From Rhizobiales bacterium 64-17 (lineage in GTDB: Bacteria; Pseudomonadota; Alphaproteobacteria; Rhizobiales; Xanthobacteraceae): 64,000 nt of DNA. This document shows positions 6,706 through 56,210 of this stretch, piece after piece; the first letter of the stretch is position 1; every line of letters begins with the position of its first letter. The stretch lies in the NCBI GenBank assembly GCA_001899285.1, contig MKWA01000002.1, positions 1 through 64,000 of the forward strand, written 5' to 3'. The position numbers were made by a program, and so were the translations under genes. Under the pieces are notes generated by a model. The model worked only from the letters and a program-made list of their open reading frames with translations. It had not been told where the DNA came from and did not search any database.

Positions 6706-7089
6706 GCGATCGCTGTTTTTTGCCCGTCGATGCCAAACGCTGAGGCCGGAACTGGCCGTGGGTTGGGATTGTAGGTCTGTTCGTCAGATATCGGCCGAAA
6801 GGAATTTGGCTTCGTTTTGCAATTTTGAGTTTTCTTCCGCGAACACCGATGGCCGGCGAGAGTGATCCAGAGCGATGATGTGGGCAAACAGGCGCGCGGC
6901 TGTGCATCATGCTTCGCCCACAAAACGCGATTTCGCCAGTTAGTCAGCCGTTCGGTCCGAGAGCTACAACCGCTCGGTTGAATCTGTAAATCGTGCGCAC
7001 CAGCGATCAAATTTTCGCGTTGTGCTTGCGCTGATCGTTGGCACGTTGTCGAATTGATTTAAATTTTAATGATCGCCGAGGAGACCGTC
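6706..7089. promoter_or_regulatory. Intergenic region upstream of luxR
   Basis: About 380 bases with no convincing gene on either strand. The last 50 bases before the LuxR start are AT-rich (around 7047-7068) and probably hold its promoter. No lux-box-like dyad was found here. Confidence 0.4.
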
Positions 7090-7833: not shown

Positions 7834-7886
7834 GACGCGTCCATCCTCCTTTTCGAGGATACACCGCACGCGAAGTTTGCCGGAGG

Positions 7887-7911
7887 TTTCCCTGGTCTCT
7901 AACTGGGGGAA
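7887..7911. promoter_or_regulatory. Imperfect dyad upstream of luxI, possible lux-box-like site
   Basis: Arms TTTCCCTGGT and ACTGGGGGAA match at 7 of 10 positions around a 5-base spacer. The right arm overlaps the G-rich ribosome binding site of luxI, so a protein bound here would block expression rather than activate it. A separate 6-bp hairpin (ATCCTC/GAGGAT, 7843-7860) lies upstream. Confidence 0.25.
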
Positions 7912-7916
7912 TTTCC

Positions 7917-12536: not shown

Positions 12537-12566
12537 CCCGACTCCGGTGATTTCAAGATATCGCCC

Positions 12567-28963: not shown

Positions 28964-30837
28964 TGACCCCGTCTTCGTCTGACAACACGCTGCTGGCGAC
29001 GCGGCCGGCGCTTCGCTTTCTCACCTGTGGTTCCGTTGATGACGGAAAGTCGACGCTGATCGGGCGGCTGCTTTATGAGCAGGGTTTGATCTTCGACGAT
29101 CATATGACCGCGCTGCAAAGCGATTCCCGTAAGCACGGTACGACCGGCGAGGATATCGATTTCGCGCTTCTGCTCGACGGTCTCGAGGCCGAGCGCGAGC
29201 AGGGCATCACCATCGACGTCGCCTATCGTTATTTCGCGACACCGCGCCGCCATTTCATCGTCGCTGATGCGCCGGGTCATGAGCAATATACGCGCAACAT
29301 GGCGACCGGCGCGTCGAACAGCGATCTTGCTGTGATCCTGGTCGATGCGTCGAAGGGGCTGATGCCGCAGACGCGACGGCATGCGATGATCGCAAGCCTG
29401 CTCGGCATCCGTTATGTGGCGCTGGCGATCAACAAGATCGATCTGGTCGATTTCCGTCAGGATGTTTTCGACCTGATCGTTGCCGAGTTCACCGTTTTCG
29501 CGGCGGCGCTGGGATTCAAAGATATCAGGCCGATCCCGCTGGCGGCGCGTTTCGGCGATAACGTGTTGTCGCCGAGTTCTCGGACGCCTTGGTACGATGG
29601 CCCGTCACTGATGGCCTATCTGGAGGCGGTCGAGATCGACGACGACCGTGCTGCGCAGCCGTTCCGCATGCCCGTGCAATGGGTCAATCGGCCGAATGCC
29701 GATTTCCGCGGATTTGCCGGAACAGTCGCCGCGGGTGCTGTTGCGCCGGGCGATCCCGTTGTCGTCCTGCCGTCGGGGCAGGGGAGCCGGATCAAGGACG
29801 TGCTGGGTCCGCAGGGCGCAGTCGAGCGCGCCGGGGCGGGGACAGCGGTGACGGTGACGCTCGCAAGCGAGATCGATATCGCGCGCGGCGATATGCTCGC
29901 CGCGCCGGATCATCGTCCGCAGGTTGCCGACCAGTTCGCCGCACATCTCGTTTGGATGTCATCGGAACCATTGCTGCCTGGCCGCTCCTATTTGATGAAA
30001 ATCAATCATGTGACGATGACCGCGAGCGTCACCGAGCTAAAGCACCGCATCGACGTCGAAAATCTCGACAAGCTCGCCGCCAAGACGCTGGCGATGAATG
30101 AGATTGGTGTGGCCAATCTCTCGCTGGCGCGACCCATTCCGTTCGACGCCTATGCCGATAATCGCACGACCGGCGCTTTCATACTTATCGACCGCTACAG
30201 CAATGAAACCGTCGCTGCCGGTATGATCGACTTCGCGCTGCGCCGTGCGACCAATATCCACTATCAGCCGATCACGGTGGCAAAGGCGGAACGCACCCGG
30301 CTGATGACGCATAAGCCGGTGGTGCTGTGGTTCACCGGATTGTCCGGCGCCGGCAAATCGACGATTGCCAATCTCGTGGAAGCGAGCCTGCACGCGCGCG
30401 GGGTGCACACGACGCTTCTGGATGGCGACAATATCCGCCACGGCCTCAACAAGGATTTGGGCTTCACAGCCGGCGAGCGCGTCGAGAACATCCGACGCAT
30501 CGGCGAGGTGGCGAAGCTGATGACCGAGGCCGGTCTGGTCGTGCTGTGTTCGTTTATCTCGCCGTTCCGCGCCGAACGGCGGATGGTGCGTGAGTTGCTG
30601 CCCGATGGTGAGTTCATTGAGGTTTTCGTCGATGCCGACCTTGATGCCTGCATCGCCCGTGACCCGAAAGGGCTCTACCGCCGGGCGCTGGCCGGGGAGA
30701 TCAAGAATTTCACCGGTGTTGACCAGCCCTATGAGCGCCCGGAGAACGCCGAGCTGACGCTCGACACCGCTCATGACAGTGCGGCCACGCTCGCCGATCA
30801 GGTGGTGGCCGAACTGATCCGGCGGCGGGTTTTCTGA
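28963..30837 (+). CDS. cysNC: Bifunctional sulfate adenylyltransferase subunit 1 / APS kinase
   Basis: 624-residue fusion, same layout as rhizobial NodQ. The N-terminal GTPase part has G-S-V-D-D-G-K-S-T (about 23-31), D-A-P-G-H-E-Q-Y and N-K-I-D; its GTP hydrolysis drives APS formation by CysD. The APS kinase part begins near residue 448 and carries [20 protein letters not shown] and C-S-F-I-S-P-F. It yields PAPS, the donor for sulfotransferases and for cysteine synthesis. ATG 28963 overlaps the cysD stop (TGATG). Confidence 0.96.
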
Positions 30838-31085: not shown

Positions 31086-34000
31086 GTGGGTATTTTGGGC
31101 GACCTGCATCATATCAACGACGATATCGCGATCGTCGGTTGGGCTTGCCGTTTTCCCGGCGCCAATAGCACAAGCGATTTCTGGGATTTGATGGCGCGCG
31201 GACAATGCACCGTGACGCGCGTGCCAGAGGATCGTTTTTCCCTCGCGCGCTTCGGGCATCCCCGCCGGCAGGAACGGGGCCGGAGCTATAGCTGGGCCGC
31301 GGGCGTCCTCGACAATGTCTGGCACTTCGACCCCAGCGTGTTCGGCATTTCGCCGCGCGAGGCGATCCAGATGGACCCGCAGCAGCGGCTGCTGCTGCAA
31401 CTGACCTGGGAGGCGTTCGAGGATGCCGGCATTCGCCCCTCGACCGTGGCGGGTAAGGATGTCGGCGTTTATGTCGGTGCGTCGCAGATCGACTATGCGC
31501 ATACTTTCGTCACCGACCAGGCGATCGCGGATTCGCATTTCGCGACCGGGACCGCGCTCGCCATTCTCGCCAACCGGATTTCCTACATTTTCGATCTGCG
31601 CGGACCGAGCGTCACGGTCGACACCGCGTGCTCATCGTCGCTGGTAGCGCTGCATCAGGCAGTTGAGGCGTTGCGATCGGGTCGCATCGATACTGCGATT
31701 GTTGGCGGCACCAACGTCATTACCAGCCCATCTTCGTTCATCGCCTTCTCGCAAGCCTCGATGCTGTCGCCGACAGGGTTGTGTCAGGCGTTCTCCAGCA
31801 AGGCGGACGGCTTCGTCCGTGCGGAGGGCGGGGGGATCGTCATTTTGCGGCGGCTGGCGCAGGCGCAGGCCGCGCGCAATCCGGTCCATGGCTTTGTCCT
31901 GGCAACCGATGTCAATTCCGACGGCCGTACCGGCGGCATTTCACTGCCGTCGCTGGAGGCGCAACAAGCGCTTCTCGAACGTATTTATGGACCGGATGGC
32001 GTTGACCCCAATCGTCTGGCGTTCGTCGAAGCGCACGGGACGGGAACTGCGGCCGGCGATCCGATCGAGGCGACGGCGCTCGGCCGTGGATTGGGTCAGC
32101 GTCGTTCAAAGCCACTGCCGATCGGCTCGGTCAAAACCAATATCGGCCACCTCGAGCCGGGCGCCGGCATCGCGGGCCTGATCAAGTCGGTGATGGCGCT
32201 CAATCACGGTGTGCTGCCGCCGTCGCTCCATTGTGACGAACTCAATCCGAACATTGCGTTTGACGACCTCAATCTCAAGGTCTGCCAGGAGGCCATATCG
32301 CTACGCGGCGAAGCGGGCACGCTGGCCGGCGTCAATTCCTTCGGGTTCGGTGGCACGAATGCGCATGCGGTGGTCGCTGGCGGGAAGAGCGCGGCGCCGC
32401 CGCGCGCGTTGGCTCCTGGGGCGGGATCATTTGTGATCTCGGCCGAAACGGCGCCCGCGCTGGCGTCGCTTGCCCAAAGCTATGCCGGCAAGATCGACGG
32501 GCTATCTAAACGCGATGTTGCGGCGATGGCCGGCGCTGCGGCGCATCGGCGCGAGCATCTGTCCCATCGTCTGGTGGTGACGTCATCCGATACCAAGGAA
32601 ATCGCACGCGCACTTCAGGCTTTCGCGGTTGATGGGGAAGATCCCAATCTTGTCGTCGGGAACGCCGTCGGCCGAAATCTTCCGGTCGCCTTCGTCTATG
32701 CTGGAAACGGCAGCCAATGGGTCGGCATGGGTCAGGCCGCTCATCGGACCAATGCGGTCTTCCGCAAGCACTTCGATCAGGTCGATGAATTGTTTGCGCC
32801 TTTGGGTGGCTGGTCGCTGCGGGATATTCTCTTCAGCGACGAACTTTCCGAGAAACTGTCACTCACGAGCGTCGCGCAGCCTCTTATTTTTGCAATCCAG
32901 AGCGCGATCACCGCCGTTCTGACATCACGTGGAATCAAGCCTGTTGCCGTGCTCGGACACAGCGTCGGCGAAATTGCTGCGGCCGAGGCGGCGGGCATTC
33001 TCGATCTCGAGACCGCAATCCGGCTCGTTTATATTCGCAGCCATCATCAGGAACGCACGCGCGGCTTTGGCCGCATGGTCGCGCTGCGCTCGACCGTGGA
33101 TACCGCGGGCGAGATGCTGCAAGCCGTGCCGGAAGTCGAGATCGCGGCCTTCAATAGCCCACGCAGCCTGACGCTGGCCGGGCCCGCCGATAAACTTGCG
33201 GCGCTGGCGACGGGCAATCCCGGCGTTGCCATGGTCGATCTCGATCTCGATTACCCATTCCATACCGGATTACTGGCGCCGATTCAGCGCGATCTGATCG
33301 CCGATCTCCAGGACATTCACGGTCATGCCGGACATACGCCGTTTGTGTCGACGGTGACTGGCCAGCAGGAATCCGGCGAAAAGCTCGACGGCGCTTATTG
33401 GTGGTGCAATGTTCGCGAGCCTGTTCAACTTGTCAGCGGATTGCACAAAGCTGCCGCACTCGGCGCGCGCTGCTTCCTCGATATTGGCGCGCGGCCGACG
33501 CTCCTCAAGCACATCACTGACAGCCTCGACGGCGAAACCACCAGCTTTGCGGTTCACGCGACGCTGGACCGTAAGGATGGCGACGGCGACCCGTTCGACC
33601 GGATCGTTGCGAAAGCTCTGGTCGCTGGCGCAGCGATCGATATGGAGCAGCTGTTCGGCGTTGATCCCGGACCTGCGATCAAGCTGCCGTCCTATCCATG
33701 GCAACAACGAGAATTTCGCTTCGAGCATACCGTTGAAGCGGTCGGGATCGAACCGATCCGGCACCCGTTCGCCGGCATGCGCTATTCTGCGGATTCGCTG
33801 GAGTGGCACGCCAATATCGATACGGCGGTGCATTCCGCGTTGCAGGATCACAAAGTCGGCGAGCAGGTTCTGTTTCCCGGCACCGCGTTCCTGGAAATCG
33901 CCTTCGCCGTCGCGCGCGAGTGGCTGAAGTCCGAACAGGTCGCCATCACGAATTTCGAGATCATTAAGGCGCTCGACCTCACCAAAGGCGAGGTCCGCGA

Positions 34001-37000
34001 GGTCATGACCAGGGTCTCGCCGGGCTCGAATGTGATCGAGATTTTCAGCAGGCCACGTCTGTCGCATGCCGCCTGGCTGCAGAATTGCCGTGGCAAGATC
34101 CAGCCCAGCCACCGCACGCCCGCCGGCGGTTTGCCGATCTGTGGCGATCGGGTGCGCGATCTCACGCGCGCTGACGTTTACCGCATCGCCGCAGATGCCG
34201 GTCTGCACTACGGCCCGGAATTTCAACTCGTTCGGGCGATGTCTATTCACGCCGGCGATGTGATCGATGTTCGCCTCGATCCGCCGTCCGGTGAAACGCC
34301 GTTCGTCCTTGACCCGATCCGGTCTGACTGCTGCTCGCATGGTATTTTCGCGGTCTTACCCGATGTACAGGCGAAAGAACGCGGGGTCGCTTATATTCCG
34401 GTCCGGATTGATCGGGCGGCGATCTATCAACCGAACGCAAAGCCGGCGCGTGCTCTTGTCGAAATTCACAGCAAGACATCGCGGGCCATCTTCGCCACGT
34501 ACTGGATTCTCGATCGTCATGATGGCGTCATTGCCGTGCTCGGCGGCGTGCGGTGCCAGGCCGTGCCGGTTCGGCATGTGGCGCACGTGGAATCGGTCGC
34601 CGTGGTCGAAGCACCGAAACTGCTGGACGGCCAGACGATTGGTGCCACCGGTCTGCCGGTCACGCCACGACAGGTTGTCGAGGCCGCCCGAAGCGCCAAT
34701 GTAGCGTTAGCGGAGGGTCCGCCGGCATCCGGCTTCGCCGATCTGCTCGACGGATTCGCCATGGCCGAGGGCCATCAGATCGCCCAATCGCTGGCAGACG
34801 ATGGTGTCGTTGACCCGCAACAGTTGGTGACAAGCGGCCGTCTTCCGGAAGAGCTTGTGCCATGGCTCGTCAATCTGCTCGCGCATCTGGAAAATGCTGG
34901 CCTCGCCAGCGAGCGTCATGGCGCGTGGCGCATCGTGTCCGACAATCTTCTGCCAAAAGCCGACGCACTTTTGAAACTGCTCGCGACCGAGCATCCGGAT
35001 CGTGGTTCGGAGTTGTTGCTGGCTGGAGCGTTGTCGGGTTTTTCTCAAAAGATATTTAAAGATCGCGCCATTGCTTTCGGCACCGAAGCTATCTTTTCGG
35101 CGTCTGCGCTCGACTTCTACAAATCCGGACATGTCTTTGCCGAAGCTGGACGACAGGCGCTCTATAAGATTTTGCAGAAGCTTCCCGGCTTCTGGCCGAA
35201 GGACCGCTCGTTGCGGATTCTTCAACTGGGCTATGGCCCACTGACGCAAATGCTGGCGCTGTCGTCGCAGGATGTCGATCTGACGGTGATCGAGCCGGAT
35301 CGTCTGGCATTCGACCGGGCCGAGGCTGCGTTAAGCAGGGATGCCTCGGTTCGCATCGTGCCGGATGCCGAGGGGATTGCAGCTGATCAGTTTGACGCCG
35401 TCATCGGTGTCGACGGCTTGCACCGGCTGGCGAAAGATATCGACCTCGACACACTGCGCGGCGCGCTGTCGGCTCATGGCCTGTTGATCGCGATCGAGGC
35501 CGAACCCTCATTGTTCCGCGACATGGTTTTTGGCTTGGAGGCCGGATGGTTCGTCGAGGAGGGGCGGGATCGCCCCGTCGGCCGTCTGCGCGCGGCGGCC
35601 AGCTGGCACGGAATGCTCGGCGGTTTCGCGCAAGCCGAGACGATCCGTGTTGTTTGCGGTTCGGATGCCGCGTCGTTGTTGGTGGCCTCCGTGGGAAGTC
35701 GCGAAGACACGCAATCCATCATCCAGGCAGATGCCAAGCCGATGGCGTCTCCAGTCATGGTGTCAATCCGATCGTCGGCGTCGACGCCACTTGCGGGCGA
35801 GATTTTGCGGTTGCTCAAAGCTGCTGGCGACGATCTTCCGGTAGTGCTGGATCCGGAGCAATTGTCTGACGCAACTGGTCGGTCGTTGATCCTGACGCCG
35901 CCGATATCATCGGAAAAGCTGGACTCGGAAACGGCGATCCTGCGTCGTTGCCTTGATCTGAAATCGCTGGCGATGACGCTCGGCGGCTGCAAGACGACAA
36001 TCTGGCTGGTCTTCGTCGGCGCGCTCGGTATCGATGGGTGTTCGGTTGATCCCGTTGAAGCCGGTACATGGTCGTTTTCGCGCACGCTCGCCAATGAGTT
36101 TCCGGCACTGGATATCCGGCGGATCGATATCGCCGAAGGGACATCGCCCGCCAGCGCGGCGAAGATCGTCCGCAGCATCATCCGGTCAGGCACTGCTGAA
36201 ACCGAGCTTCACACCGACGGTACCAAGGTTCAGGCTGTTCGCGTCAAGGGGTTGAAGTCGGTCGTCGAGCACCTGACGCGGGCTGAACCCGCCGCAGCTC
36301 GACTGCAACGGCGCAGCGGCACCGGTCAGCGGCTGTTCTGGGAAAGCGTGCATCGCGTCCGGCCCGACCCGAATGATGTCGAGATCGCGGTCGAGGCGAC
36401 GGGGCTTAATTTTCGGGATCTGATGTGGATGCTGTCGTTGTTGCCTGACGACATGCTGGAGGATGGTTTTACCGGCCCGACGCTCGGTCTCGAATGTGCA
36501 GGACGGATCGTGAGGGTCGGATCGGCCGTGACCGGGTTGAAGCCGGGCGATCCGGTACTGGCACTGGCGGCGTCCGCATTCGCAACGCATACGGTTGTTC
36601 CAGCGGCGCGCGTCGCCAAGGTTCCGCAGGGAATGTCGCTCGATGCCGCGGCAACGATCCCGGTCGCCTTCCTCACGGCGTATTATGCCCTGATCAAACT
36701 CGCGCATCTCGATCGTGACGAGACCATTCTCATCCATGGTGGCGCGGGCGCCGTCGGCATGGCCGCGATCCAGATCGCGCAATGGCGCGGCGCGCGGATC
36801 ATCGCGACAGCCGGATCTCCTGCCAAGCGAAGTCTGTTGAGGGCTTTGGGCGTCGATCACCTTCTCGATTCCCGATCTACGGCATTTGTCGAATCCGTGC
36901 GCGAGATCGTTCCGAACGGTGTCGACGTTGTGCTGAACAGTCTGGCCGGCGACGCGATGGAAATGAGCATCGCCTGCCTCGGGTCGTTCGGCCGGTTTGT

Positions 37001-38531
37001 CGAACTCGGCAAGCGCGACTACATCACCAACACGCATATCGGGCTGCGGCCGTTCCGCAAAAATCTCAGCTACTTTGGTGTCGATCTCGATCAACTCGTC
37101 GTTGGCCGGGAAACGGTTGGCGACGCGCTCCTCAGGGAGGTGATGGCGCTGTTCGAGCAAGGCGCGTTCACGCCGTTGCCGTATAGTGTGTTCGGCGGAT
37201 CGAATGTCGCGGAAGCGTTCCACCTGATGCAGGAGTCGAGCCATATCGGCAAGATTGTCGTGAAACCGGCGCCGGCTGGTTTGGCGCGGTCCGTGCAAGG
37301 CGCATGGACGCCGAAAGCCGGGACGCATGTCATCACCGGCGCTTTCGGCGGGTTTGGCGCCGAGATTGCTCGCTGGTTGGCCGAGCGGGGCGTCCGTCAC
37401 CTGGTGCTGATTGGCCGAAAGGGCGCCGCGCGCCCGGATGCGAAGGCGTTGGTGCGAGAACTGACCGAGCGCGGTGTCACAGTCATGGCCGATCCGTGTG
37501 ATATCGCTGATCCACGCGCGGTCGAGGCACTGTTCCGCAAGATTCACGCGACGATGCCACCCGTGGTTGGCGTGATGCACGCGGCGATGTTGCTCGACGA
37601 CGCGATCCTCACGAATTTGAGCGAGGATCGGTTCCGGCGCGTCCTGGCGCCGAAGGTGAAGGGCGCCGAAAATCTCGATATCGTCACGCGCGGCTTGCCG
37701 CTCGATTACTTTGTCCTGTTCTCGTCGGTGACGACCCTGATCGGTAATCCGGGCCAGGCCAATTACGTGGCGGCCAACGGATTTATGGAAGGATTGGCGC
37801 GACGCCGGCGGCAGATGGGATTGCCGGCGCTGGCGGTCGGGTGGGGGCCAATCACGGATGTCGGCGTGGTGGCCACCAGCGACCGCTTGCGCAGCAGTCT
37901 GGAAAAGTTGACCGGTGTTAAGGGTATTCGCGCGCGCGAGGGTCTCGAATTGCTGGCGCAGGCGCTTGCTCTGGCGCCGAAAGCGACCGAGATCGCCGCG
38001 ATGACTATCTCTCCCAATGATGGCAACTTCTCCAAGGAGCGTCTGCCGATCCTGCGGTCGCCGACCTATGTGTCGTTTGTCCGCAGCGAGGACGCAACCG
38101 ATGCCTCTGGAGACGCTATCGATCTGCGAGCGTTGTTGCAGCAGGAACCCATCGAGGCTGTGCGGCGCAAGGTTTCTGATGTGGTCGTCAGGGCGCTCGG
38201 TAAGGTTCTGCATGCCCGCCCGGAAGATATCAGCAGGGTGCGGCCGCTGGGCGAAATCGGCCTGGACTCGTTGATGACGCTGGAGCTCGTGATGAGTCTC
38301 GAGTCTGCTTTCGGTTTGAATATCTCGCTGGTCAATTCGGTCGGAACGTTGACCATCTCGGCGTTGTCGGATGAAATCATTGCGCAGGTCGATCTTGACC
38401 AACATCGTGACGATACCGCCGTCGCCGATATGGCGGGTCGGCATGTGACCTCGATGACGCCAGAGGCAGTTCAGACTTTGAAGAATATTGCCGTCACCGA
38501 TGCGATCCGCCCGGAGGGGCGCGCATCTTGA
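31086..38531 (+). CDS. rkpA: Single-module reducing type I polyketide synthase (RkpA-like)
   Basis: 2481-residue cytosolic megasynthase. Domains in order: ketosynthase 10-430 (Cys182 in D-T-A-C-S-S-S, His317, His355); acyltransferase 530-830 (Ser626 in G-H-S-V-G); dehydratase 890-1170 (His922, Asp1081); a methyltransferase-like segment about 1370-1500; enoyl reductase 1745-2065 (H-G-G-A-G-A-V-G); ketoreductase 2075-2260 (Ser2214, Tyr2227); acyl carrier 2360-2430 (Ser2395 in L-D-S-L). No thioesterase is present; release is probably by the next gene, an alpha-oxoamine synthase overlapping by 4 bases. With all reducing steps it should act iteratively to make a long saturated acyl chain. The domain order and gene order match RkpA of Sinorhizobium K-antigen loci and Burkholderia capsule synthases. 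Start is GTG 31086 with AGGGGCGG upstream. Confidence 0.92.
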   Translation: MGILGDLHHINDDIAIVGWACRFPGANSTSDFWDLMARGQCTVTRVPEDRFSLARFGHPRRQERGRSYSWAAGVLDNVWHFDPSVFGISPREAIQMDPQQRLLLQLTWEAFEDAGIRPSTVAGKDVGVYVGASQIDYAHTFVTDQAIADSHFATGTALAILANRISYIFDLRGPSVTVDTACSSSLVALHQAVEALRSGRIDTAIVGGTNVITSPSSFIAFSQASMLSPTGLCQAFSSKADGFVRAEGGGIVILRRLAQAQAARNPVHGFVLATDVNSDGRTGGISLPSLEAQQALLERIYGPDGVDPNRLAFVEAHGTGTAAGDPIEATALGRGLGQRRSKPLPIGSVKTNIGHLEPGAGIAGLIKSVMALNHGVLPPSLHCDELNPNIAFDDLNLKVCQEAISLRGEAGTLAGVNSFGFGGTNAHAVVAGGKSAAPPRALAPGAGSFVISAETAPALASLAQSYAGKIDGLSKRDVAAMAGAAAHRREHLSHRLVVTSSDTKEIARALQAFAVDGEDPNLVVGNAVGRNLPVAFVYAGNGSQWVGMGQAAHRTNAVFRKHFDQVDELFAPLGGWSLRDILFSDELSEKLSLTSVAQPLIFAIQSAITAVLTSRGIKPVAVLGHSVGEIAAAEAAGILDLETAIRLVYIRSHHQERTRGFGRMVALRSTVDTAGEMLQAVPEVEIAAFNSPRSLTLAGPADKLAALATGNPGVAMVDLDLDYPFHTGLLAPIQRDLIADLQDIHGHAGHTPFVSTVTGQQESGEKLDGAYWWCNVREPVQLVSGLHKAAALGARCFLDIGARPTLLKHITDSLDGETTSFAVHATLDRKDGDGDPFDRIVAKALVAGAAIDMEQLFGVDPGPAIKLPSYPWQQREFRFEHTVEAVGIEPIRHPFAGMRYSADSLEWHANIDTAVHSALQDHKVGEQVLFPGTAFLEIAFAVAREWLKSEQVAITNFEIIKALDLTKGEVREVMTRVSPGSNVIEIFSRPRLSHAAWLQNCRGKIQPSHRTPAGGLPICGDRVRDLTRADVYRIAADAGLHYGPEFQLVRAMSIHAGDVIDVRLDPPSGETPFVLDPIRSDCCSHGIFAVLPDVQAKERGVAYIPVRIDRAAIYQPNAKPARALVEIHSKTSRAIFATYWILDRHDGVIAVLGGVRCQAVPVRHVAHVESVAVVEAPKLLDGQTIGATGLPVTPRQVVEAARSANVALAEGPPASGFADLLDGFAMAEGHQIAQSLADDGVVDPQQLVTSGRLPEELVPWLVNLLAHLENAGLASERHGAWRIVSDNLLPKADALLKLLATEHPDRGSELLLAGALSGFSQKIFKDRAIAFGTEAIFSASALDFYKSGHVFAEAGRQALYKILQKLPGFWPKDRSLRILQLGYGPLTQMLALSSQDVDLTVIEPDRLAFDRAEAALSRDASVRIVPDAEGIAADQFDAVIGVDGLHRLAKDIDLDTLRGALSAHGLLIAIEAEPSLFRDMVFGLEAGWFVEEGRDRPVGRLRAAASWHGMLGGFAQAETIRVVCGSDAASLLVASVGSREDTQSIIQADAKPMASPVMVSIRSSASTPLAGEILRLLKAAGDDLPVVLDPEQLSDATGRSLILTPPISSEKLDSETAILRRCLDLKSLAMTLGGCKTTIWLVFVGALGIDGCSVDPVEAGTWSFSRTLANEFPALDIRRIDIAEGTSPASAAKIVRSIIRSGTAETELHTDGTKVQAVRVKGLKSVVEHLTRAEPAAARLQRRSGTGQRLFWESVHRVRPDPNDVEIAVEATGLNFRDLMWMLSLLPDDMLEDGFTGPTLGLECAGRIVRVGSAVTGLKPGDPVLALAASAFATHTVVPAARVAKVPQGMSLDAAATIPVAFLTAYYALIKLAHLDRDETILIHGGAGAVGMAAIQIAQWRGARIIATAGSPAKRSLLRALGVDHLLDSRSTAFVESVREIVPNGVDVVLNSLAGDAMEMSIACLGSFGRFVELGKRDYITNTHIGLRPFRKNLSYFGVDLDQLVVGRETVGDALLREVMALFEQGAFTPLPYSVFGGSNVAEAFHLMQESSHIGKIVVKPAPAGLARSVQGAWTPKAGTHVITGAFGGFGAEIARWLAERGVRHLVLIGRKGAARPDAKALVRELTERGVTVMADPCDIADPRAVEALFRKIHATMPPVVGVMHAAMLLDDAILTNLSEDRFRRVLAPKVKGAENLDIVTRGLPLDYFVLFSSVTTLIGNPGQANYVAANGFMEGLARRRRQMGLPALAVGWGPITDVGVVATSDRLRSSLEKLTGVKGIRAREGLELLAQALALAPKATEIAAMTISPNDGNFSKERLPILRSPTYVSFVRSEDATDASGDAIDLRALLQQEPIEAVRRKVSDVVVRALGKVLHARPEDISRVRPLGEIGLDSLMTLELVMSLESAFGLNISLVNSVGTLTISALSDEIIAQVDLDQHRDDTAVADMAGRHVTSMTPEAVQTLKNIAVTDAIRPEGRAS

Positions 38532-39871
38532 CTGAACCGGGCGATGGCGATCAGGACGCCCGCCAGCGTCTGATGGCGCGCGTTCAATCGATGCGGCGTG
38601 GCCTGGACGCGGCTCCTCGCGATTTTGGCGACCCGACGGACTTTGGTTCGCTTCCGGGGTTTGAGGAATTACGCGTCCAGCGCGCAATCGGAAACCGGCT
38701 CGGACTCAATAATCCGTATTTCAAGATGCACGAAGGCCGCGCCGGTTCACATACGCTGATCGGCAATCGCGATCTGATCAATTTCTCCTGCTACGATTAT
38801 CTCGGTCTCAACGGCCACCCGGAAATTCTCGACGCAGCACAGGATGCGATCCGCCGCTTCGGTGTGTCGTGCTCGGCGAGCCGCGTCGTCGCCGGCGAGC
38901 GCCAGGTTCATCGCGATCTTGAGCAGGCGTTGGCGAAGCATTACACCGCTGATGATGCGGTTGTCATGGTCAGCGGCTACGCTACCAATCTTGGCGTGAT
39001 CGGACAGCTTGTCGGTCCGAAGGATCTGATTGTTTATGACGCCGTGTCCCACAATAGTGTGGTGATGGGTAGCGTTCTCTCCGGCGCGACGCGCCGCAGT
39101 TTCGCGCACAACGACCTCGACAATCTCGACGAGATTTTAACGGCCAATAGAGCGAAATATCATCGCGTGCTGGTGATCGTCGAAGGTCTTTACAGTATGG
39201 ATGGTGATTATCCGGATTTGCCACGGCTGATCGACATCAAGCGCCGGCACAAGGCTTGGTTGATGGTGGATGAGGCGCACAGCCTCGGCGTCCTGGGTGC
39301 CAGGGGCGGCGGTGTGGCCGAGCATTTTGGTGTCGACCCACGCGAGGTCGATATCTGGATGGGAACGCTGTCGAAAACGCTTGCCGGGTGCGGCGGTTAC
39401 ATCGCCGGGTCGGCAGTATTGGTCGATTATCTCCGTTCACTCTGCAATGCCTTCGTTTACAGCGTCGGCATGCCGCCCGCCATTGCGGCATCCGCGGGCA
39501 AGGCGCTGGAGATCATGCACCGCGAGCCGGAACGGGTGGAGCGGCTGCAACACAACAGCCGCTATTTTCAGGCTGGGGCCCAGTCGCGCGGCATGAATAC
39601 GGGAACGGCGCCGGGCACGGCTGTGTGTCCGATCATCGTCGGGGATTCGGTTGCCGCCGCTTATCTGTCGCAGCGCATGTTCGACTGCGGGATCAACGTG
39701 CAACCGGTTCTCTATCCCGCAGTTCCGGCGAAAACCTCGCGACTGCGGTTCTTCCTGACCGCTATGCACAGCGAGGCCGATATGGACACGACGCTGTCGG
39801 TATTGCAGGAAGAACTCGTGGCTTTGCCGGCGGCGATGGAAAAGCTGACGACTCGCGATGGCCATCGCTGA
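38528..39871 (+). CDS. rkpG: Alpha-oxoamine synthase (RkpG-like; AONS/serine palmitoyltransferase family)
   Basis: 447-residue PLP enzyme that joins an acyl thioester and an amino acid with loss of CO2. The PLP Lys is K283 in G-T-L-S-K-T-L-A, the cofactor Asp/His are in V-D-E-A-H-S-L-G, and substrate His in A-V-S-H-N-S. N-terminal Y-D-Y-L-G-L-N-G-H and S-A-S-R-V-V-A-G are family marks. The start is TTG 38528, forming a TTGA overlap with the PKS stop; ATG 38573 is an alternative. Taking the acyl chain directly from the PKS carrier domain would give a 3-keto long-chain base-like product. RkpG in Sinorhizobium is the closest known counterpart by context. Confidence 0.9.
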   Translation: MTEPGDGDQDARQRLMARVQSMRRGLDAAPRDFGDPTDFGSLPGFEELRVQRAIGNRLGLNNPYFKMHEGRAGSHTLIGNRDLINFSCYDYLGLNGHPEILDAAQDAIRRFGVSCSASRVVAGERQVHRDLEQALAKHYTADDAVVMVSGYATNLGVIGQLVGPKDLIVYDAVSHNSVVMGSVLSGATRRSFAHNDLDNLDEILTANRAKYHRVLVIVEGLYSMDGDYPDLPRLIDIKRRHKAWLMVDEAHSLGVLGARGGGVAEHFGVDPREVDIWMGTLSKTLAGCGGYIAGSAVLVDYLRSLCNAFVYSVGMPPAIAASAGKALEIMHREPERVERLQHNSRYFQAGAQSRGMNTGTAPGTAVCPIIVGDSVAAAYLSQRMFDCGINVQPVLYPAVPAKTSRLRFFLTAMHSEADMDTTLSVLQEELVALPAAMEKLTTRDGHR

Positions 39872-39922
39872 AAGCGGTGTTATTCTCATTCGGTTCAGGA
39901 CGTTGTGCGTGAAGTCCGGATC

Positions 39923-40696
39923 ATGACCCGTACTGTCGTTATCACCGGTGCGACCAGCGGCATCGGTCAGGCACTAGCCCAGCGGTATGCCGCGCCGGGT
40001 ATCGTTCTGGGCCTGATCGGTCGTGACCCAGAGCGGCTCGGCCGTATCGCTGACGATGCGCGGCAGCGCGGTGCGGTGATCGTGACCGGAGCGATTGATG
40101 TCCGTGATCGCGTCGCGATGCAAACCTGGTTGCGAAACCTGGACCGGGATCATTCCATCGACCTCGTCATCGCCAATGCCGGCGTGATGGAAGGGACGCC
40201 GCCCGGCGGTACGATCGAGCCAGCCGACGCCGCTTACGATCTGATGCAGACCAATGTGCTGGGCGTGATGAACACCGTACAGCCGATACTGGACGCGATG
40301 GTGACGCGCGGACGCGGGCAGGTGGCGATCATGTCGTCGATCGCCGCTTTCATCCCGCTGGCGGATTCGCCGAGCTATTGCGCGAGCAAATCGGCCGTCC
40401 TCAGCTACGGTTTGTCGCTGCGCGCGTTGCTTGCCCGGCAGGGCATTCGCGTCAGCGTCATTTGCCCCGGCTATATCGAGACGCCGATGATGTTGCGCGA
40501 GAATGGGCCAAAACCATTCAAGATGTCGGCGGAACGTGCGGCAGAGTTGATCGCCACGGGGCTCGAACGCGACAAGGCCGTGATTTCGTTCCCGGCCTTC
40601 TTCGCATGGATGACGTGGCTGAACGGGATTTTGCCGGATGGCCTGCGTCGGCAGTTATCGCGCTCGTTCCGCTTTACCGTCTCTCCTTGGGGATGA
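39923..40696 (+). CDS. rkpH: Short-chain dehydrogenase/reductase (RkpH-like)
   Basis: 257-residue classical SDR. It has T-G-A-T-S-G-I-G for NAD(P) binding, N-A-G, catalytic Ser in M-S-S-I-A-A, and Y-C-A-S-K (Tyr-x-x-x-Lys). The C-terminal region (V-I-S-F-P-A-F-F-A-W-M) is hydrophobic, as in membrane-associated 3-keto lipid reductases. ATG 39923 is used, GTG 39905 is possible. By position after the oxoamine synthase it probably reduces the 3-keto group of its product, like 3-ketodihydrosphingosine reductase. Its 3' end overlaps the convergent acyltransferase by 42 bases. Confidence 0.88.
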   Translation: MTRTVVITGATSGIGQALAQRYAAPGIVLGLIGRDPERLGRIADDARQRGAVIVTGAIDVRDRVAMQTWLRNLDRDHSIDLVIANAGVMEGTPPGGTIEPADAAYDLMQTNVLGVMNTVQPILDAMVTRGRGQVAIMSSIAAFIPLADSPSYCASKSAVLSYGLSLRALLARQGIRVSVICPGYIETPMMLRENGPKPFKMSAERAAELIATGLERDKAVISFPAFFAWMTWLNGILPDGLRRQLSRSFRFTVSPWG

Positions 40697-41653
40697 GGGT
40701 TCGTCCTCATAGTCGAGCGAAAAATACCACTGATCGAGCCGCGCACCTACGATCGGCTCGATCACGGCGTTGAGCGCCGCAGCGTTCTCACGAACGCGCA
40801 TGGACTTGTTAGCGGCTGATGACATGGACAACTGCGGCAGGAAGGTCACACGAAAGCGCGCGGCATCATCGAGCCGCTCGCAATAGGCGGGGATCAGGGC
40901 CGCGTCGCTGCGCTCGGCCAATTGAACGGCATAGTAAATATTGCTTGCCGGATTGAGTGTTCGTCCGAACGCCGGCGCCTGAACGCGATCGTGCATCAGT
41001 GCGTCGATATAGATGATGAAAGGCCCGCCGCCGGCGCGCAGTTCCCGATAGGCTTCGCGCAGACTGTTCGGCCCTGCCGCAATGAAGCGTGCGCCATATC
41101 GGGCGCGAACGCGGTTGATGAGCCTGTGCAAGAAGCGGTTCTCGGGCGCAAGATAGATGCCGGTGCCATGATAGCCGTTGGCGATTCCGGCTACGAGCAC
41201 CACCTCCCAATTGGCGAGATGAACCGGTGTCACGACGATCGGCTGGCCGCGATCGCGCGCGGCGTGCATGTGTTCGAGACCCGCGGTCGCGATCCGCCCC
41301 TCAGCCCACAGCCGGTCGATCACCGAATATTCGTGCATGGTGCGGCCGACATTGCGCCAGAGCCGCTCCATCGCCGCGTCGGTCGAAGTCGTATCCGCAT
41401 GTTCCGGGTTGTGCCGCTGCCACAGACGTCGCGCGCGTGCATCGCTGTCGGGATAGAACTTGCGTGTCAGCCGTGTCAGCACCGCGCCTGCCCAAGAGCA
41501 CGCGTCGGTCGGTAAAATACGCATCGCGCCGTGGATCGCGTGGAAATAAGCGCCTGCGATCGGATCAGCGAGCCAGTACAGCAGCGCTGTGCGCCGTTTG
41601 TCGCGTTCGGCGAACAGCCAGCGGATCGGCGGCGTGGTCGCGTCCAATGTCAT
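40655..41653 (-). CDS. LpxL/HtrB-like lysophospholipid acyltransferase family protein
   Basis: 332-residue protein of the LPLAT superfamily, similar to lipid A lauroyl acyltransferases. The H-x-x-x-x-E catalytic motif is H-L-A-N-W-E at about residue 144, followed by V-L-V-A-G-I-A. The A-A-G-P-N-S-L-R-E-A segment and G-G-P-F-I-I-Y-I-D at about 200-220 are the other family blocks. It is 2 codons downstream of the P450 stop (1-base gap), so the two are co-expressed. In this setting it may N- or O-acylate the PKS-derived base rather than lipid A. The 3' end overlaps rkpH on the other strand. Confidence 0.85.
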   Translation of the reverse strand: MTLDATTPPIRWLFAERDKRRTALLYWLADPIAGAYFHAIHGAMRILPTDACSWAGAVLTRLTRKFYPDSDARARRLWQRHNPEHADTTSTDAAMERLWRNVGRTMHEYSVIDRLWAEGRIATAGLEHMHAARDRGQPIVVTPVHLANWEVVLVAGIANGYHGTGIYLAPENRFLHRLINRVRARYGARFIAAGPNSLREAYRELRAGGGPFIIYIDALMHDRVQAPAFGRTLNPASNIYYAVQLAERSDAALIPAYCERLDDAARFRVTFLPQLSMSSAANKSMRVRENAAALNAVIEPIVGARLDQWYFSLDYEDEPSSPRRDGKAERAR

Positions 41654-41654
41654 G

Positions 41655-43043
41655 TCAATGAACCGGCGCCGCGATGGCTGTTCGTGCGCGAGGCTCGATC
41701 GTCATTGGCAGCCCGCCGTCTGGCCGCAAGGTGAGGCGGCAGACTGGCTCGACCACATATCCCGGTCGCAGCCGAGCGCGGAAGTGCTGCGCCAGGGTCG
41801 CGATGCACAGGATCGTTTCGGTCAAGGCGAAGGATTGTCCGACACAGACGCGTGGGCCGATGCTGAACGGCACGAAGGCGTATTTCGACACCGGCTCTTT
41901 GCTGCCGGGGAGGAACCGCTCGGGAATGAAATGGTCAGGCTTGTCCCACAGCCGGCGATGCCTGTGGAGCAGCCATGGTACGACAAACACCATGGAGCCT
42001 TTAGGAATGCGTACGCCGTTGAAGGTTTCCTCCTGCAAGACCTCGCGTGGCAGGATCGGAAGCGGCGGATAGAGGCGCAGTGTCTCCTCGACCACGGCCT
42101 GTGTATAGGTGAGCTTGCGCAGATCCGCGAGCGTCGGCAGACGACCGCCGAGCACCCCATCCAGTTCAGCGTGCAGTCGCGCTTCGACTTCAGGGCACTG
42201 CGACAGCAAGAACCAGACCCAGGCCATGGTGTTGGCGGTGGTTTCATGTCCGGCGAGGAACAGCATGGCGGCTTCGTTGCGCAGCGTCACTTCGTCGAGC
42301 GGCTTTCCCTTGCTGTCGCGGGCGTCGAGCAGTCGACTGATCACAGAGGCTTCTTTGGTCGCGGGGCGTGACCGGTAATCGGCGATCATCGCATCGAGCA
42401 CGGTGTGGATGCGGCGCTGCGCGCGCCGGACTTTGGCGTTGCGGAAGCGTGGCACCCAGTCCGGCAGCCCGAGAAACGAAATCAGGTCGATCTGGCTGAT
42501 CGCTTGCTGGTACTCGGTGAAGCTCTGGAACGTCTCGCCGGTATAGTCGCGCCCGAGCTGACGCCCGAAGGTGGCGCGGCAGATGATCTCAGCCGCGAGA
42601 TGCGCCATCTCTTCGAGGACGTTGACCTCTCCGGACAGGTTGTCCCAGCGTCCGCGCAACTCGTCGGCGGTTTCGGCCATGACCTTGGCGAACTCTTCGA
42701 GCCGCGACGCATGCAGGATTGGCGCGATGATCTGTCGACGTTGCCGCCACGTTTCGCCGTCACTGATGAACAAGCTGTCGCCTATCAGCGGCTCGAGCGC
42801 GTGGCGGGTTTGCGGCCCTTTGCGTTCGAAGCTCGCATTTTTGAGGTTGAACGCGAACTGCACGGATTCCGGGCTGTTGCAGAGGAAGGTGGTACGTGTG
42901 AATATTCGTTCATGTGAAAACTCCAGGGTGAAGGCGCTTTCCTCCCAGATTGACACTGTGTTGGCACGGGCGAGTCGCAGGCGCGTCCAGGGCCAAGGTG
43001 GCTGCCGCAGCCGCGGGGGGTAGGGAGGAACGAAATCGCTCAC
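41655..43043 (-). CDS. Cytochrome P450
   Basis: 462-residue P450. The I-helix oxygen-binding motif is A-G-H-E-T-T-A-N, the ExxR pair is in E-E-T-L-R-L-Y-P-P, and the heme ligand is Cys400 in F-S-I-G-P-R-V-C-V-G. The sequence resembles CYP4/CYP102-like fatty-acid hydroxylases in general pattern. There is no fused reductase, so it needs external ferredoxin and reductase, not visible here. Start is GTG 43043 with AGGA upstream. Together with the acyltransferase it faces the rkpAGH genes; hydroxylation of the long alkyl chain is the most natural inference. Confidence 0.93.
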   Translation of the reverse strand: MSDFVPPYPPRLRQPPWPWTRLRLARANTVSIWEESAFTLEFSHERIFTRTTFLCNSPESVQFAFNLKNASFERKGPQTRHALEPLIGDSLFISDGETWRQRRQIIAPILHASRLEEFAKVMAETADELRGRWDNLSGEVNVLEEMAHLAAEIICRATFGRQLGRDYTGETFQSFTEYQQAISQIDLISFLGLPDWVPRFRNAKVRRAQRRIHTVLDAMIADYRSRPATKEASVISRLLDARDSKGKPLDEVTLRNEAAMLFLAGHETTANTMAWVWFLLSQCPEVEARLHAELDGVLGGRLPTLADLRKLTYTQAVVEETLRLYPPLPILPREVLQEETFNGVRIPKGSMVFVVPWLLHRHRRLWDKPDHFIPERFLPGSKEPVSKYAFVPFSIGPRVCVGQSFALTETILCIATLAQHFRARLRPGYVVEPVCRLTLRPDGGLPMTIEPRARTAIAAPVH

Positions 43044-43389: not shown

Positions 43390-44616
43390 TTGGTGGGAAT
43401 CTTGCAGGCACGCGGCGCCTCTCAACGTCTGAGATCGAGTTCGGTCTGGCGCTCTGCGACCGGGTGGCTTGCCCTTTTGGGCGCTGCCGGACTGGCGGGC
43501 TGCACGGCCATGCCCTCAGCGGGGCCCACCGCAACCGAAATCGTGCAGAACGAAGCGCCGGCCAGCGCTCCGACCCTGACGGGCTATATGGTCGTCGATA
43601 TCGACGGTCATGTGATCTCCGTGCTGAGCCGGCGGCCGAAGTCGTCGCTGTTCAGCATGTTCAAGACTGGTAAGAAGCCGCCGGATGTCCGCCTCGGCGT
43701 TGGCGATTCCATTAGCGTGACTATCTGGGAAGCGAGTGCCGGCGGCTTGTTCTCGACCGCGAGCGTCGACAAGACGACACCGGGGTCGCGCACCGCGACG
43801 CTGCCTGTCCAGGAAATCGCGCAGGACGGCACCATTCAAATTCCCTATGCGGGTCGCTTGAAGGTCGCCGGCTTGCGTCCGGCGCAGGTTGAGGCGCTGA
43901 TCGTCAAGGACCTGCAAGGCAAGGCTATCGAGCCGCAGGCGGTTGTCACGTTGGCGAAAACACGCAGCTCGACCGTGACCATCACCGGCGAAGTGACGAA
44001 CGGCATGCTTGCGCCGGTCAGCGTGGTCGGTGACCGCGTGCTCGACGTGATCGCAACCGCCGGCGGCATCAAGGCTCCAGCCTATGAGACATTCGTGTCG
44101 CTGACGCGCGGCGAGACGACCGCGACCATCGCGTTCAATGCCATCCTCGCCGACGCCCGCGAGAACGTCTATGTGCGTCCGGGCGATGTGCTGACGGTGA
44201 TCAAGCAGCCGCAGCGGTTCACGGTGTTTGGTGGCACGGGTCGTAACGAACTAGTTCCGTTCGATGCGGCGGGCATTACGCTCGAAGAAGCATTGGCGCG
44301 TGCAGGTGGTTTGCAAGATTTACGCGCCGATGCCAATGGTGTGTTCCTGCTGCGCTTCGAACCGGCGGCGATCGCAGCGCAACTCGAACCGTCCCGCAAG
44401 AATCAAATTGCAACGCCGGTCGTGCCGATCGTCTATCGGCTCGCGTTGCGCGATGCCAACTCCTACTTCCTAGCCCGCTCGTTCCAGATGCGCGACAAGG
44501 ACATCATCTATGTCGCGAACGCGCCGATGACCGAAGTTCAGAAGGCTCTCAGTGTGATCGGTTCGGTGACGGCGCCGGTGGTTTCGGGTGCTGCCGTTTA
44601 CAGCATCGCCAAATAG
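43390..44616 (+). CDS. Capsule polysaccharide export outer-membrane lipoprotein (Wza/KpsD-like)
   Basis: 408-residue lipoprotein with a lipobox L-A-G-C after a hydrophobic stretch (G-W-L-A-L-L-G-A-A-G). The Poly_export domain is at about 85-195 (L-G-V-G-D-S-I-S-V-T-I-W-E ... G-T-I-Q-I-P-Y-A-G-R-L-K-V-A-G), followed by SLBB-like beta-grasp repeats (T-V-T-I-T-G-E-V; R-F-T-V-F-G-G-T-G-R-N). It would form the outer-membrane channel for polymer exit. Start is uncertain: TTG 43390, GTG 43393 and TTG 43402 are in frame and there is no ATG; the frame is closed at 43375. First gene of the export operon. Confidence 0.9.
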   Translation: MVGILQARGASQRLRSSSVWRSATGWLALLGAAGLAGCTAMPSAGPTATEIVQNEAPASAPTLTGYMVVDIDGHVISVLSRRPKSSLFSMFKTGKKPPDVRLGVGDSISVTIWEASAGGLFSTASVDKTTPGSRTATLPVQEIAQDGTIQIPYAGRLKVAGLRPAQVEALIVKDLQGKAIEPQAVVTLAKTRSSTVTITGEVTNGMLAPVSVVGDRVLDVIATAGGIKAPAYETFVSLTRGETTATIAFNAILADARENVYVRPGDVLTVIKQPQRFTVFGGTGRNELVPFDAAGITLEEALARAGGLQDLRADANGVFLLRFEPAAIAAQLEPSRKNQIATPVVPIVYRLALRDANSYFLARSFQMRDKDIIYVANAPMTEVQKALSVIGSVTAPVVSGAAVYSIAK

Positions 44617-44745: not shown

Positions 44746-45972
44746 ATGCTCGACATGCCAGGACCATTACGGGTCGTATCGGACGGCGAAACCAGGACTG
44801 CCGCCCGTGCCGGACGTATAGTTGGTGCGTTGGCGGGGCGGCGAACGATTGCTCAAACCGTTGAGCGTCTTGGTGTTTTGCGGCTGTCGTTTCTGTTGTG
44901 CGTGATCGTTCCGACACTGATTGCCGGGCTTTATTTGTCGGTCATGGCTTCGGACCAATATGTCTCCGAGGCGCGGTTTTCCGTTCGGCGGGGGACCGAA
45001 ACCAAAATGCCGCCGATGTTGAGCGGCTTGTCGTTCCTGACATCGTTGACCACCAGCGGCGCGTCGACGATGCAGGACGCGTTCATCGTCACCGATTATG
45101 TCCGCAGCCGCACTATCATCGAGGATCTTGGCGGCAAGGACGTGATTGCGAAAATCTACGCGCATCCGGACGCGGACTGGTTCTCCCGGATGCGGTCGGA
45201 TCTGCCGCTGGAGAAAGTCTGGAAATACTGGAAGCGCAAGGTCACGGCGACGATCGATACGCAATCCGGCATTGTGACGCTCGAGATCGCAACCTTTTCA
45301 CCGCAGGAAGCATTCGATCTTGCCCGCCGCATCGTTGAAAAAAGCGAGAAACTCGTCAACGAGATTTCCGAGCGCAGCCGCAACGATGCCCTTGAGCGCG
45401 CACGCGGGGAAGTGACGCTTGCTCAAGAGCGTGTGCGCAAGGCGCGCGAGGAATTGTTGCAGTTCCGCAATGCGAACAGCTCTATCGATCCTGTTGCCAG
45501 TGCGACGTCACTCAGCGAGACGGTCGCGACGCTGATGCGCGAGCGGATAAAGCTCGATAACGACCGGGCAAGCCTGCTCGGCGTTGTGGCTGCGGAATCG
45601 CCTATTCGCAGGCAGCTCGACGCGCGCATTGCCAATATCGACAAGCAGATTGCCGCGCTGCGAGACCAGATGACGAAAGAAGGGCAGGACACGGCGATTT
45701 CGGGTCAGATCGCCGGTTATGAAAACCTGCAACTGGAATCGCAATTCGCCGAAAAGCTGTACGAAGTGGCGCAAAGCGCGTTCGAACAGGCGCGGACCGA
45801 ACAGGATAAAAAGCAGCTTTACCTCGCGACCATCGTGAAACCCGCATTGCCCGAACTGCCGCTTTATCCTCGTATCGGCCTCGGCATGTTTGTGGTGATG
45901 GCTGTATGCTTTGTCCTGTGGAGCATGATGGCACTGCTGATAGCCGCTGTCCGCGATCACATGGGACATTGA
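44746..45972 (+). CDS. Capsule export inner-membrane/periplasmic protein, KpsE-like (copy 1)
   Basis: 408-residue polysaccharide co-polymerase-type protein (KpsE/RkpR group). One membrane helix lies at about 45-70 (F-L-L-C-V-I-V-P-T-L-I-A-G-L-Y), then a periplasmic part with V-S-E-A-R-F-S-V-R and A-F-I-V-T-D-Y-V-R-S-R, a long coiled coil (about 195-325), and a C-terminal helix after P-E-L-P-L-Y-P-R. It links the inner-membrane ABC transporter with the outer-membrane channel. ATG 44746 is used. It is about 35% of the way along a broken operon; a second paralogue lies at 48656. Overall architecture is the same in both. Confidence 0.9.
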   Translation: MLDMPGPLRVVSDGETRTAARAGRIVGALAGRRTIAQTVERLGVLRLSFLLCVIVPTLIAGLYLSVMASDQYVSEARFSVRRGTETKMPPMLSGLSFLTSLTTSGASTMQDAFIVTDYVRSRTIIEDLGGKDVIAKIYAHPDADWFSRMRSDLPLEKVWKYWKRKVTATIDTQSGIVTLEIATFSPQEAFDLARRIVEKSEKLVNEISERSRNDALERARGEVTLAQERVRKAREELLQFRNANSSIDPVASATSLSETVATLMRERIKLDNDRASLLGVVAAESPIRRQLDARIANIDKQIAALRDQMTKEGQDTAISGQIAGYENLQLESQFAEKLYEVAQSAFEQARTEQDKKQLYLATIVKPALPELPLYPRIGLGMFVVMAVCFVLWSMMALLIAAVRDHMGH

Positions 45973-56145: not shown

Positions 56146-56210
56146 GAGCAACGCTCCGCAAGGGCATGTGAGTGGCTTGATCGGGCGGATGCAACATCAG
56201 AAGCATCGTT

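Follow-up and report, generated by a model that had tools for sequence, protein, structure and literature searches.

A polyketide synthase and alpha-oxoamine synthase locus beside capsule export genes in Rhizobiales bacterium 64-17, a candidate source of a sphingoid capsule anchor

Organization of the five-gene locus

We analysed 64,000 nucleotides of DNA from Rhizobiales bacterium 64-17 (contig MKWA01000002.1, positions 1 to 64,000; hereafter the window), in which five genes that may specify a long-chain base lipid lie beside a set of capsule export genes. On the forward strand, the gene of an iterative type I polyketide synthase (PKS; 31086..38531, GTG start, 2481 amino acids), recognized from its open reading frame (ORF), Pfam domains and motifs as KS-AT-DH-ER-KR-ACP, overlaps by 4 bases that of a pyridoxal phosphate-dependent alpha-oxoamine synthase (AOS; 38528..39871, TTG start, 447 amino acids), and a short-chain dehydrogenase (SDR; 39905..40696, 263 amino acids, Pfam adh_short), proposed to be a 3-keto-long-chain-base reductase, starts 33 bases after the end of the AOS gene. 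On the reverse strand, the gene of a cytochrome P450 (41655..43043, 462 amino acids, assigned by Pfam), the proposed chain hydroxylase, is separated by a single base (41654) from that of an acyltransferase of the LpxL/LPLAT fold with an HX4E motif (40655..41653, 332 amino acids, Pfam PF03279). The SDR and acyltransferase genes are convergent and share 42 bases at their 3' ends, a detail absent from the original prediction, a model's note on this DNA; the five ORFs themselves were found intact where that prediction had placed them, with the PKS/AOS overlap, the SDR and the converging P450/LpxL-like pair with its 1-base gap as described. The catalytic motifs of all five proteins are intact in the translations.

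The same order of genes (PKS, AOS and SDR and, converging on them, LpxL-like acyltransferase and P450) was found again in a Bradyrhizobiaceae metagenome-assembled genome (MAG; locus L035) and in a genome of the window's genus (L022), where the contig end truncates the PKS. From a scan of named genomes we compared the best 80 loci of at least 581 AOS relatives, a selection that favours close kin; judged by title, they belong mostly to alpha-, beta- and gammaproteobacteria, together with one Desulfomicrobium MAG. The PKS gene lies directly upstream of the AOS gene in 77 of these 80 loci; in L039 the PKS is downstream, in L056 it is on the opposite strand, and in L041 the retrieved stretch has none. 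Since both this pairing and the five-gene order recur, the arrangement is not due to chance. A quick tree of 55 AOS proteins, made without bootstraps and with a stop in the L109 row read as a gap, contains the AOS of two Pseudomonas species (L086, L109) as well as that of the window. Of 100 relatives, 12 had a PKS-type AOS at E<=1e-80, with 4 of the 42 same-genus genomes among them; it was also present, in a survey of an even draw of 347 genomes of the order, in 99 genomes at E<=1e-100, 90 of them at E<=1e-120. The limits adopted for this survey were 1e-120 for a strict AOS, 1e-100 for the P450, 1e-40 for KpsE and 1e-20 for KpsC/S, and 9 genomes with a weak AOS were scored as AOS-negative in the two-by-two tables.

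Features of the PKS, AOS and SDR

Pfam assigned KS, AT, DH, ER, KR and PP-binding domains to the PKS, which make up one full reducing module, and the KS Cys/His/His, AT GHSVGE, DH His, ER and KR nucleotide motifs, KR Ser-Tyr-Asn and ACP Ser are all kept. The closest solved structure is that of mycocerosic acid synthase. No thioesterase was recognized, since Pfam matched nothing after the ACP (residues 2366-2429 of 2481), in agreement with what the original prediction had stated. An active methyltransferase domain was considered and discarded, the DH-ER stretch (translated from 34500-36300) having no Pfam match. The window thus has the trait of the SgaAB type, a single-module reducing PKS without a recognizable thioesterase and with an AOS directly downstream. 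PfSgaAB of Pseudomonas fluorescens MYb115, published in 2025, likewise consists of a monomodular iterative PKS followed by an AOS, with an SDR in the cluster. According to PMC12134224, its products are C24-C28 sphinganines and, probably, phosphoglycerol sphingolipids; serine is incorporated, and the assayed SgaB is a serine palmitoyltransferase. The main text of that paper has no mention of P450, capsule, rkp, Rhizob, kps, Kdo, polysaccharide or wcb, and the two systems were likened by description only. By analogy with this system of the same make-up, the release by amino-acid condensation and the ketone reduction that had been predicted for the window are probably correct.

The AOS keeps the lysine motif TLSK and VDEAH. 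A rival reading is an ordinary BioF- or KBL-type enzyme of biotin or glycine metabolism, using free acyl-CoA and unrelated to the PKS, and bioF indeed gives the best NCBIfam score of the AOS. At 360 bits, however, this score is under the bioF cut-off of 426, on which ground a BioF or glycine enzyme was rejected, and the protein falls below every NCBIfam cut-off of its family. Among PDB entries a serine palmitoyltransferase ranks first (E 1e-71), followed closely by entries of the BioF and KBL type; in the alignment this top match has the PAVP loop and the following Arg in common with the AOS. Together with the PKS that adjoins the AOS in nearly all of the named loci, these matches make an enzyme of the BioF/KBL kind very improbable. 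The SDR retains the Ser-Tyr-Lys residues, and its relatives of 49-63% identity lie behind the AOS in L022, L023, L033, L035 and L036.

Association with capsule export genes

Beyond the P450 gene, the forward strand carries the genes of a KpsD/VexA-like outer-membrane polysaccharide export protein (43390..44616; Pfam Poly_export and SLBB, NCBIfam PRK15078 and VexA below cut-off), a first KpsE/BexC-family inner-membrane export protein (44746..45972; TIGR01010, E 1.1e-75, below the curated cut-off), a KpsM-type capsule ATP-binding cassette (ABC) permease (47191..48009; NF050053 KpsM, E 2.1e-31, below cut-off; PDB 8tsh, E 6.6e-26), a KpsT-type ABC ATPase (48006..48659; PF00005) and a second KpsE-family protein (48656..49933; TIGR01010 match at G000:C2:48863-49870, E 2.7e-57). 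An exporter of the KpsD, E, M and T type is present, its family models being matched below their curated cut-offs, and the PKS, AOS and SDR lie inside a capsule locus, as in the rkp-1 and wcb loci. Two different KpsE-family proteins flank the one KpsM/KpsT pair.

The association extends beyond the window. Among the 347 genomes, AOS (E<=1e-120) and KpsE (TIGR01010, E<1e-40, a limit that falls in a wide gap of the score list) occur together in 80, AOS without KpsE in 10, KpsE without AOS in 26 and neither in 231, giving an odds ratio of 71; KpsE was thus found in 80 of the 90 AOS-positive versus 26 of the 257 AOS-negative genomes. The corresponding counts for AOS and KpsC/KpsS are 78 with both, 12 with AOS only, 29 with KpsC/S only and 228 with neither, and the P-values of both tables overstate the case, the genomes being related. 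The co-occurrence of PKS-type AOS and KpsE across these genomes of the order is new here. In the named genomes, capsule genes (KpsC/S, KpsE, KpsD or KpsM) were seen in the retrieved flank of 35 of the 80 PKS-AOS loci; of the 50 loci that span 19 kb or more, 25 have them. Nitrosomonas europaea (L046) has PKS, AOS, KpsD, KpsM, KpsT and KpsE in series. In Pseudomonas putida 31753 and P. paraversuta (L086 11208-20080 and L109 11269-19626), genes of a PhyH-type dioxygenase, which may be a stand-in for the P450, and of the KpsC/KpsS family adjoin the AOS on the other strand. Co-occurrence and gene order together bear out the capsule link that had been proposed from the window.

The PKS, AOS and SDR might nevertheless make a free membrane or secreted sphingolipid without any role in the capsule, their Kps neighbours reflecting chance or co-regulation. 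The PfSgaAB lipids are described in PMC12134224 as secondary metabolites acting on a host, 10 of the 90 AOS-positive genomes have no KpsE, and AOS and KpsE are at most 30 kb apart in only 24 of the 80 genomes with both, partly because assemblies are drafts. The strength of the AOS-KpsE association speaks against it, as do the two Pseudomonas loci, where the PKS-AOS pair adjoins KpsC/KpsS-family genes, and the capsule table for Burkholderia pseudomallei in PMC4275268, which sets the WcbR PKS beside KpsS. We therefore judge a free sphingolipid to be an unlikely product.

KpsC/KpsS and the type of anchor

In the canonical ABC-exported capsules, as outlined in passages of PMC11041684 and PMC12220298, the chain starts on phosphatidylglycerol, 3-deoxy-D-manno-oct-2-ulosonic acid (Kdo) is added by KpsS and KpsC, and KpsMT recognizes that end. 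The window shares KpsD-, KpsE-, KpsM- and KpsT-type proteins with the group 2 capsules of Escherichia coli (KpsMTED plus KpsC/KpsS), but its genome, 100% complete by estimate and in 26 contigs, gave no match to PF05159, the KpsC/KpsS family. Neither the KpsC and KpsS Kdo transferases of group 2 nor the KpsS-like protein of rkp/wcb was therefore recognized (0 of 1, own genome), and, judging from this gene content, the usual Kdo-phosphatidylglycerol anchor is unlikely in the host. We looked for PF05159 in the genomes of 55 AOS loci, namely 50 of the 80 named loci plus 5 further genomes; 39 have a match and 16 rows do not (G018 and G410 being one genome), among them G018, G005, G055 (99% complete), N. 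europaea, Methylocella silvestris and Leeia oryzae, several of the others being draft MAGs. KpsC/S is lacking in 9 of the 106 KpsE-positive genomes, of which 4 have a strict AOS, 3 a weaker one (1e-103 to 1e-108) and 2 neither. Trp45, Arg89 and Arg94 of StKpsM line the lipid site according to PMC11041684, and the window KpsM has Ile, Leu and Met at the equivalent positions.

According to passages of PMC9597891, the Vi antigen is the sole known outlier from the conserved Kdo-phosphatidylglycerol anchor; KpsS/KpsC are missing there, and the enzyme that acylates the anchor is VexE, the LPLAT-fold catalytic domain of which is closest to PatA and LpxM. The window resembles the Vi locus in combining an ABC-exported capsule without KpsS/KpsC and an LPLAT-fold acyltransferase, whereas VexE has 686 residues with tetratricopeptide repeats (TPR) and acylates UDP-GlcNAc; the 332-residue protein of the window has no TPR part, and hence not the TPR-LPLAT two-domain architecture, and lies beside a P450. 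The Vi locus is not known to have a PKS or AOS.

The P450 subfamily and its acyltransferase neighbour

The P450 keeps the ExxR and FxxGxxxCxG motifs, and the entries that it matches in the PDB, among them LUT5, CYP4B1, CYP102, CYP3A4 and a sterol hydroxylase, are a mixture of P450s acting on fatty acids, carotenoids, sterols and drugs. Its subfamily (E<=1e-100) was found in 39 of the 347 genomes, from 18 genera and 11 families by group code, and all 39 are among the 90 AOS-positive ones, an outcome with a probability of 7e-27 under free shuffling, which ignores kinship. The nesting holds for 41 of 41 genomes down to E 7e-86; the first AOS-negative genome, G253, appears at E 2e-83, and below this value P450s of about 30-37% identity occur both with and without AOS. 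On the tree of 55 AOS proteins, in which L040 (2e-97) and L098 (7e-87), with P450s cut by contig ends, were labelled as positive, the distribution of the P450 label takes 9 changes, no fewer than 6 of them forced by well-supported branches; the nesting thus does not go back to a single inherited event.

Immediately behind the P450 gene and on its strand, 34 of the 38 other genomes have an LpxL-like gene, which makes 35 of 39 when the window is counted. Another 13 P450 genomes were reached through AOS loci and are all AOS-positive by selection; this neighbour was found in 6 of them: G411, G015, G018, Roseibium aggregatum, Ancylobacter crimeensis and Halomonas urumqiensis. The strict P450-LpxL operon that the first count suggested was given up after the second; the pairing is frequent, not fixed. 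Members of several families (G303, G124, G156, G138, G141 and Halomonas urumqiensis L103) have the pair linked to PKS-AOS or Kps genes, for example in the order KpsD, P450, LpxL, SDR, PKS, AOS in G303 and KpsM, KpsT, KpsE, P450, LpxL, KpsC/S, AOS, PKS in G124. Judged from example coordinates, no third partner within 5 kb of the pair is shared across many families; the components found in many families looked like other frames or antisense of the P450, LpxL or PKS genes, and the rest span at most 3 families.

The HX4E motif of the acyltransferase reads HLANWE, and all 40 acyltransferases that were aligned have HX4E. The PF03279 match spans residues 39-310 of the 332, and the AlphaFold model, of moderate confidence (mean predicted local distance difference test score, pLDDT, 60), matches LpxM and PatA best. 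In a PDB sequence search the top rows were designed repeat proteins and LpxM (E 0.52) was not significant. Family, motif and predicted fold thus agree on an LPLAT/LpxL-type enzyme, which in a capsule locus without KpsC/S is a trait of the Vi type.

The PKS, AOS and SDR could make an anchor while the P450 and the LpxL-like enzyme act on another lipid, for instance on lipid A, through hydroxylation of a long chain and acylation. The lipid A of rhizobia has very-long chains that are hydroxylated, and the nearest NCBIfam model of the acyltransferase is that of a lipid A lauroyl acyltransferase (PRK06553), matched below cut-off. P450 and AOS also lie at most 30 kb apart in only 6 of the 39 genomes; in the other 33 this was not seen, partly because assemblies are drafts. 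The coupling is thus one of whole genomes and not only of one cluster. A substrate outside the pathway is harder to reconcile with the nesting of all 39 P450 genomes among those with AOS, with the linkage of the P450-LpxL pair to PKS-AOS or Kps genes in the six loci and genomes named above, and with the lack of any third gene common to many families near the pair. We consider it quite unlikely that the two enzymes serve another lipid.

The original prediction had set the P450/acyltransferase addition apart from described loci. This now rests on a P450 subfamily that in 347 genomes occurs with AOS only and often has an acyltransferase behind it, and a search of open-access full text, subscription papers being outside its scope, showed among the papers listed none joining a P450 with LpxL in a capsule-anchor setting. 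The nested P450 subfamily, its frequent LPLAT neighbour and the absence of KpsC/S are new here.

Proposed pathway and its standing

We tentatively favour, at somewhat less than even probability, the reading that a hydroxylated and acylated PKS-derived long-chain base serves as the capsule anchor, both the chemistry and the anchor role being inferred, and every chemical step from homology. The PKS, with its full set of reducing domains, would build a saturated long acyl chain on the ACP. The AOS would release this chain in a decarboxylative condensation, the amino acid partner being in all likelihood serine, as judged from the assayed PfSgaB, to give a 3-keto long-chain base, the ketone of which would be reduced by the SDR. 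The P450 would then hydroxylate the chain, and the LpxL-like enzyme would add an acyl group to the new hydroxyl or to the amine, a step proposed because its relatives LpxL, LpxM, PatA and VexE acylate glycolipid hydroxyls. The polysaccharide that KpsM/T/E/D export may then start on, and be held in the membrane by, the finished amino lipid in place of Kdo-phosphatidylglycerol.

Parts of this scheme have precedents. The rkp-1 locus of Sinorhizobium (RkpA-RkpG-RkpH) and the wcb locus of Burkholderia resemble the window in having a PKS- or fatty acid synthase-like protein, RkpA or WcbR, in a capsule locus, and wcb also has an AOS and an SDR; wcb differs by KpsS and a sulfatase-like protein, both absent from the window locus, which has the P450 and LpxL instead, as far as descriptions can be compared. 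The capsule table in PMC4275268 places an oxononanoate-synthase-like protein, the WcbR PKS, a sulfatase-like membrane protein, an SDR and KpsS of B. pseudomallei side by side, and PMC3557214 sets out a long-standing proposal in which the rkp genes make a lipid carrier or anchor for the capsule. Of the new long-chain base lipid and possible capsule anchor that had been predicted, the capsule link is retained and the novelty is not, PKS-derived long-chain bases having been published in 2025 and the rkp anchor proposed long before. Among the papers listed in open-access full text, again with subscription papers outside the scope, none was seen joining sphinganine or AOS with capsule lipid anchors.

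Several results weigh against the anchor reading. The counts of the survey are not independent, owing to kinship among the genomes, the cut-offs were set after the score lists had been seen, and no KpsE match in the 347 genomes reaches the curated cut-off of TIGR01010. As 78 of the 90 AOS-positive genomes also carry KpsC/S, the sphingoid is not the usual replacement for the Kdo route and could there be at most a lipid acceptor; PKS-AOS and KpsC/S as mutually exclusive alternatives were rejected as a general rule for the same reason. Among 44 classed KpsM rows (3 further loci being unclassed), 2 of the 12 from genomes without KpsC/S and 13 of the 32 from genomes with it retain the Arg94 equivalent, and the canyon residues do not separate the two groups. 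The capsule of S. meliloti 1021 is reported in PMC7902896, and in the title of Fraysse 2005, to have a phospholipid anchor. On the enzymatic side, the NCBIfam models nearest to the P450 are those of terpene oxidases, matched far under their cut-offs, so its sequence gives no indication of a fatty-chain substrate, and the SDR has no specific match to a 3-ketosphinganine reductase. The LpxL neighbour of the P450 is missing at 4 of the 39 loci (L155, L179, L186 and L189, where a profile search found nothing), and within a flank of about 1.5 kb, which in some cases includes a contig end, none was seen in 7 of the 13 further genomes: three Enterovirga, two Cocleimonas (where it is the PKS that comes next), G055 and the lichen MAG L040. 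Finally, two P450s of 33-34% identity (G128:C7:1420-2790 and G271:C22:42795-44165) adjoin KpsC-family genes in genomes with no AOS match at E<=1e-100 and form a second P450-capsule link.

A wider version of the anchor reading, which we put forward as doubtful though possible, would make PKS-derived sphingolipids a second and widespread kind of capsule anchor among Proteobacteria. One branch would use a phosphoglycerol sphinganine instead of phosphatidylglycerol as the acceptor of KpsS; in that of the window KpsC/KpsS would have been lost and the P450 and LPLAT enzyme would finish the lipid, a hydroxylated and acylated long-chain base on which the polysaccharide starts directly, and the Sga lipids would be anchor precursors. 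If so, many soil, marine and plant-associated bacteria would anchor their capsules on polyketide-made sphingolipids, the PKS and AOS in rkp/wcb capsule loci would be explained, the Sga sphingolipids of 2025 would be tied to a cell-surface role, and the P450 subfamily and its frequent acyltransferase neighbour would gain a function.

Further genes near the locus

Directly upstream of the PKS, on the forward strand, Pfam identified CysD (start set by eye) and CysNC (28052..30837), which activate sulfate to 3'-phosphoadenosine-5'-phosphosulfate (PAPS) and are possible partners of the locus. Both genes are also found near PKS-AOS in L023, L024/L034, L025, L051, L100 and L103, and L042 and L058 have CysD only; this recurrence is a hint that the lipid or the polysaccharide may be sulfated. 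An 884-residue ORF at 53497-56151 has no Pfam match and an N-terminus that is sulfotransferase-like by eye only (HRSGTSALTRVL); a sulfotransferase would fit with the PAPS genes.

The Halomonas loci have the order SDR, LtaS-like PF00884 protein, PKS, AOS, and a phosphoglycerol-transferase-like PF00884 gene, with weak LtaS and phosphoglycerol transferase matches, is found in 18 of the 80 named loci. It was dismissed as a partner of the window locus, as the two copies of the genome lie on other contigs. In Cocleimonas L101, formyltransferase-like and chorismate-lyase-like genes (11240-12670) follow the AOS, and the P450 is upstream of the PKS.

Within the window, a 348-residue ORF without Pfam match lies on the reverse strand between the first KpsE and KpsM (45982-47028), and the second KpsE is followed by methyltransferase, glycosyltransferase, RgpF and RmlA/RmlD/epimerase genes. 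At 7069-8570, an ORF that is LuxR-like by eye (7069-7833) precedes a LuxI-type autoinducer synthase (Autoind_synth, E 1.3e-20).

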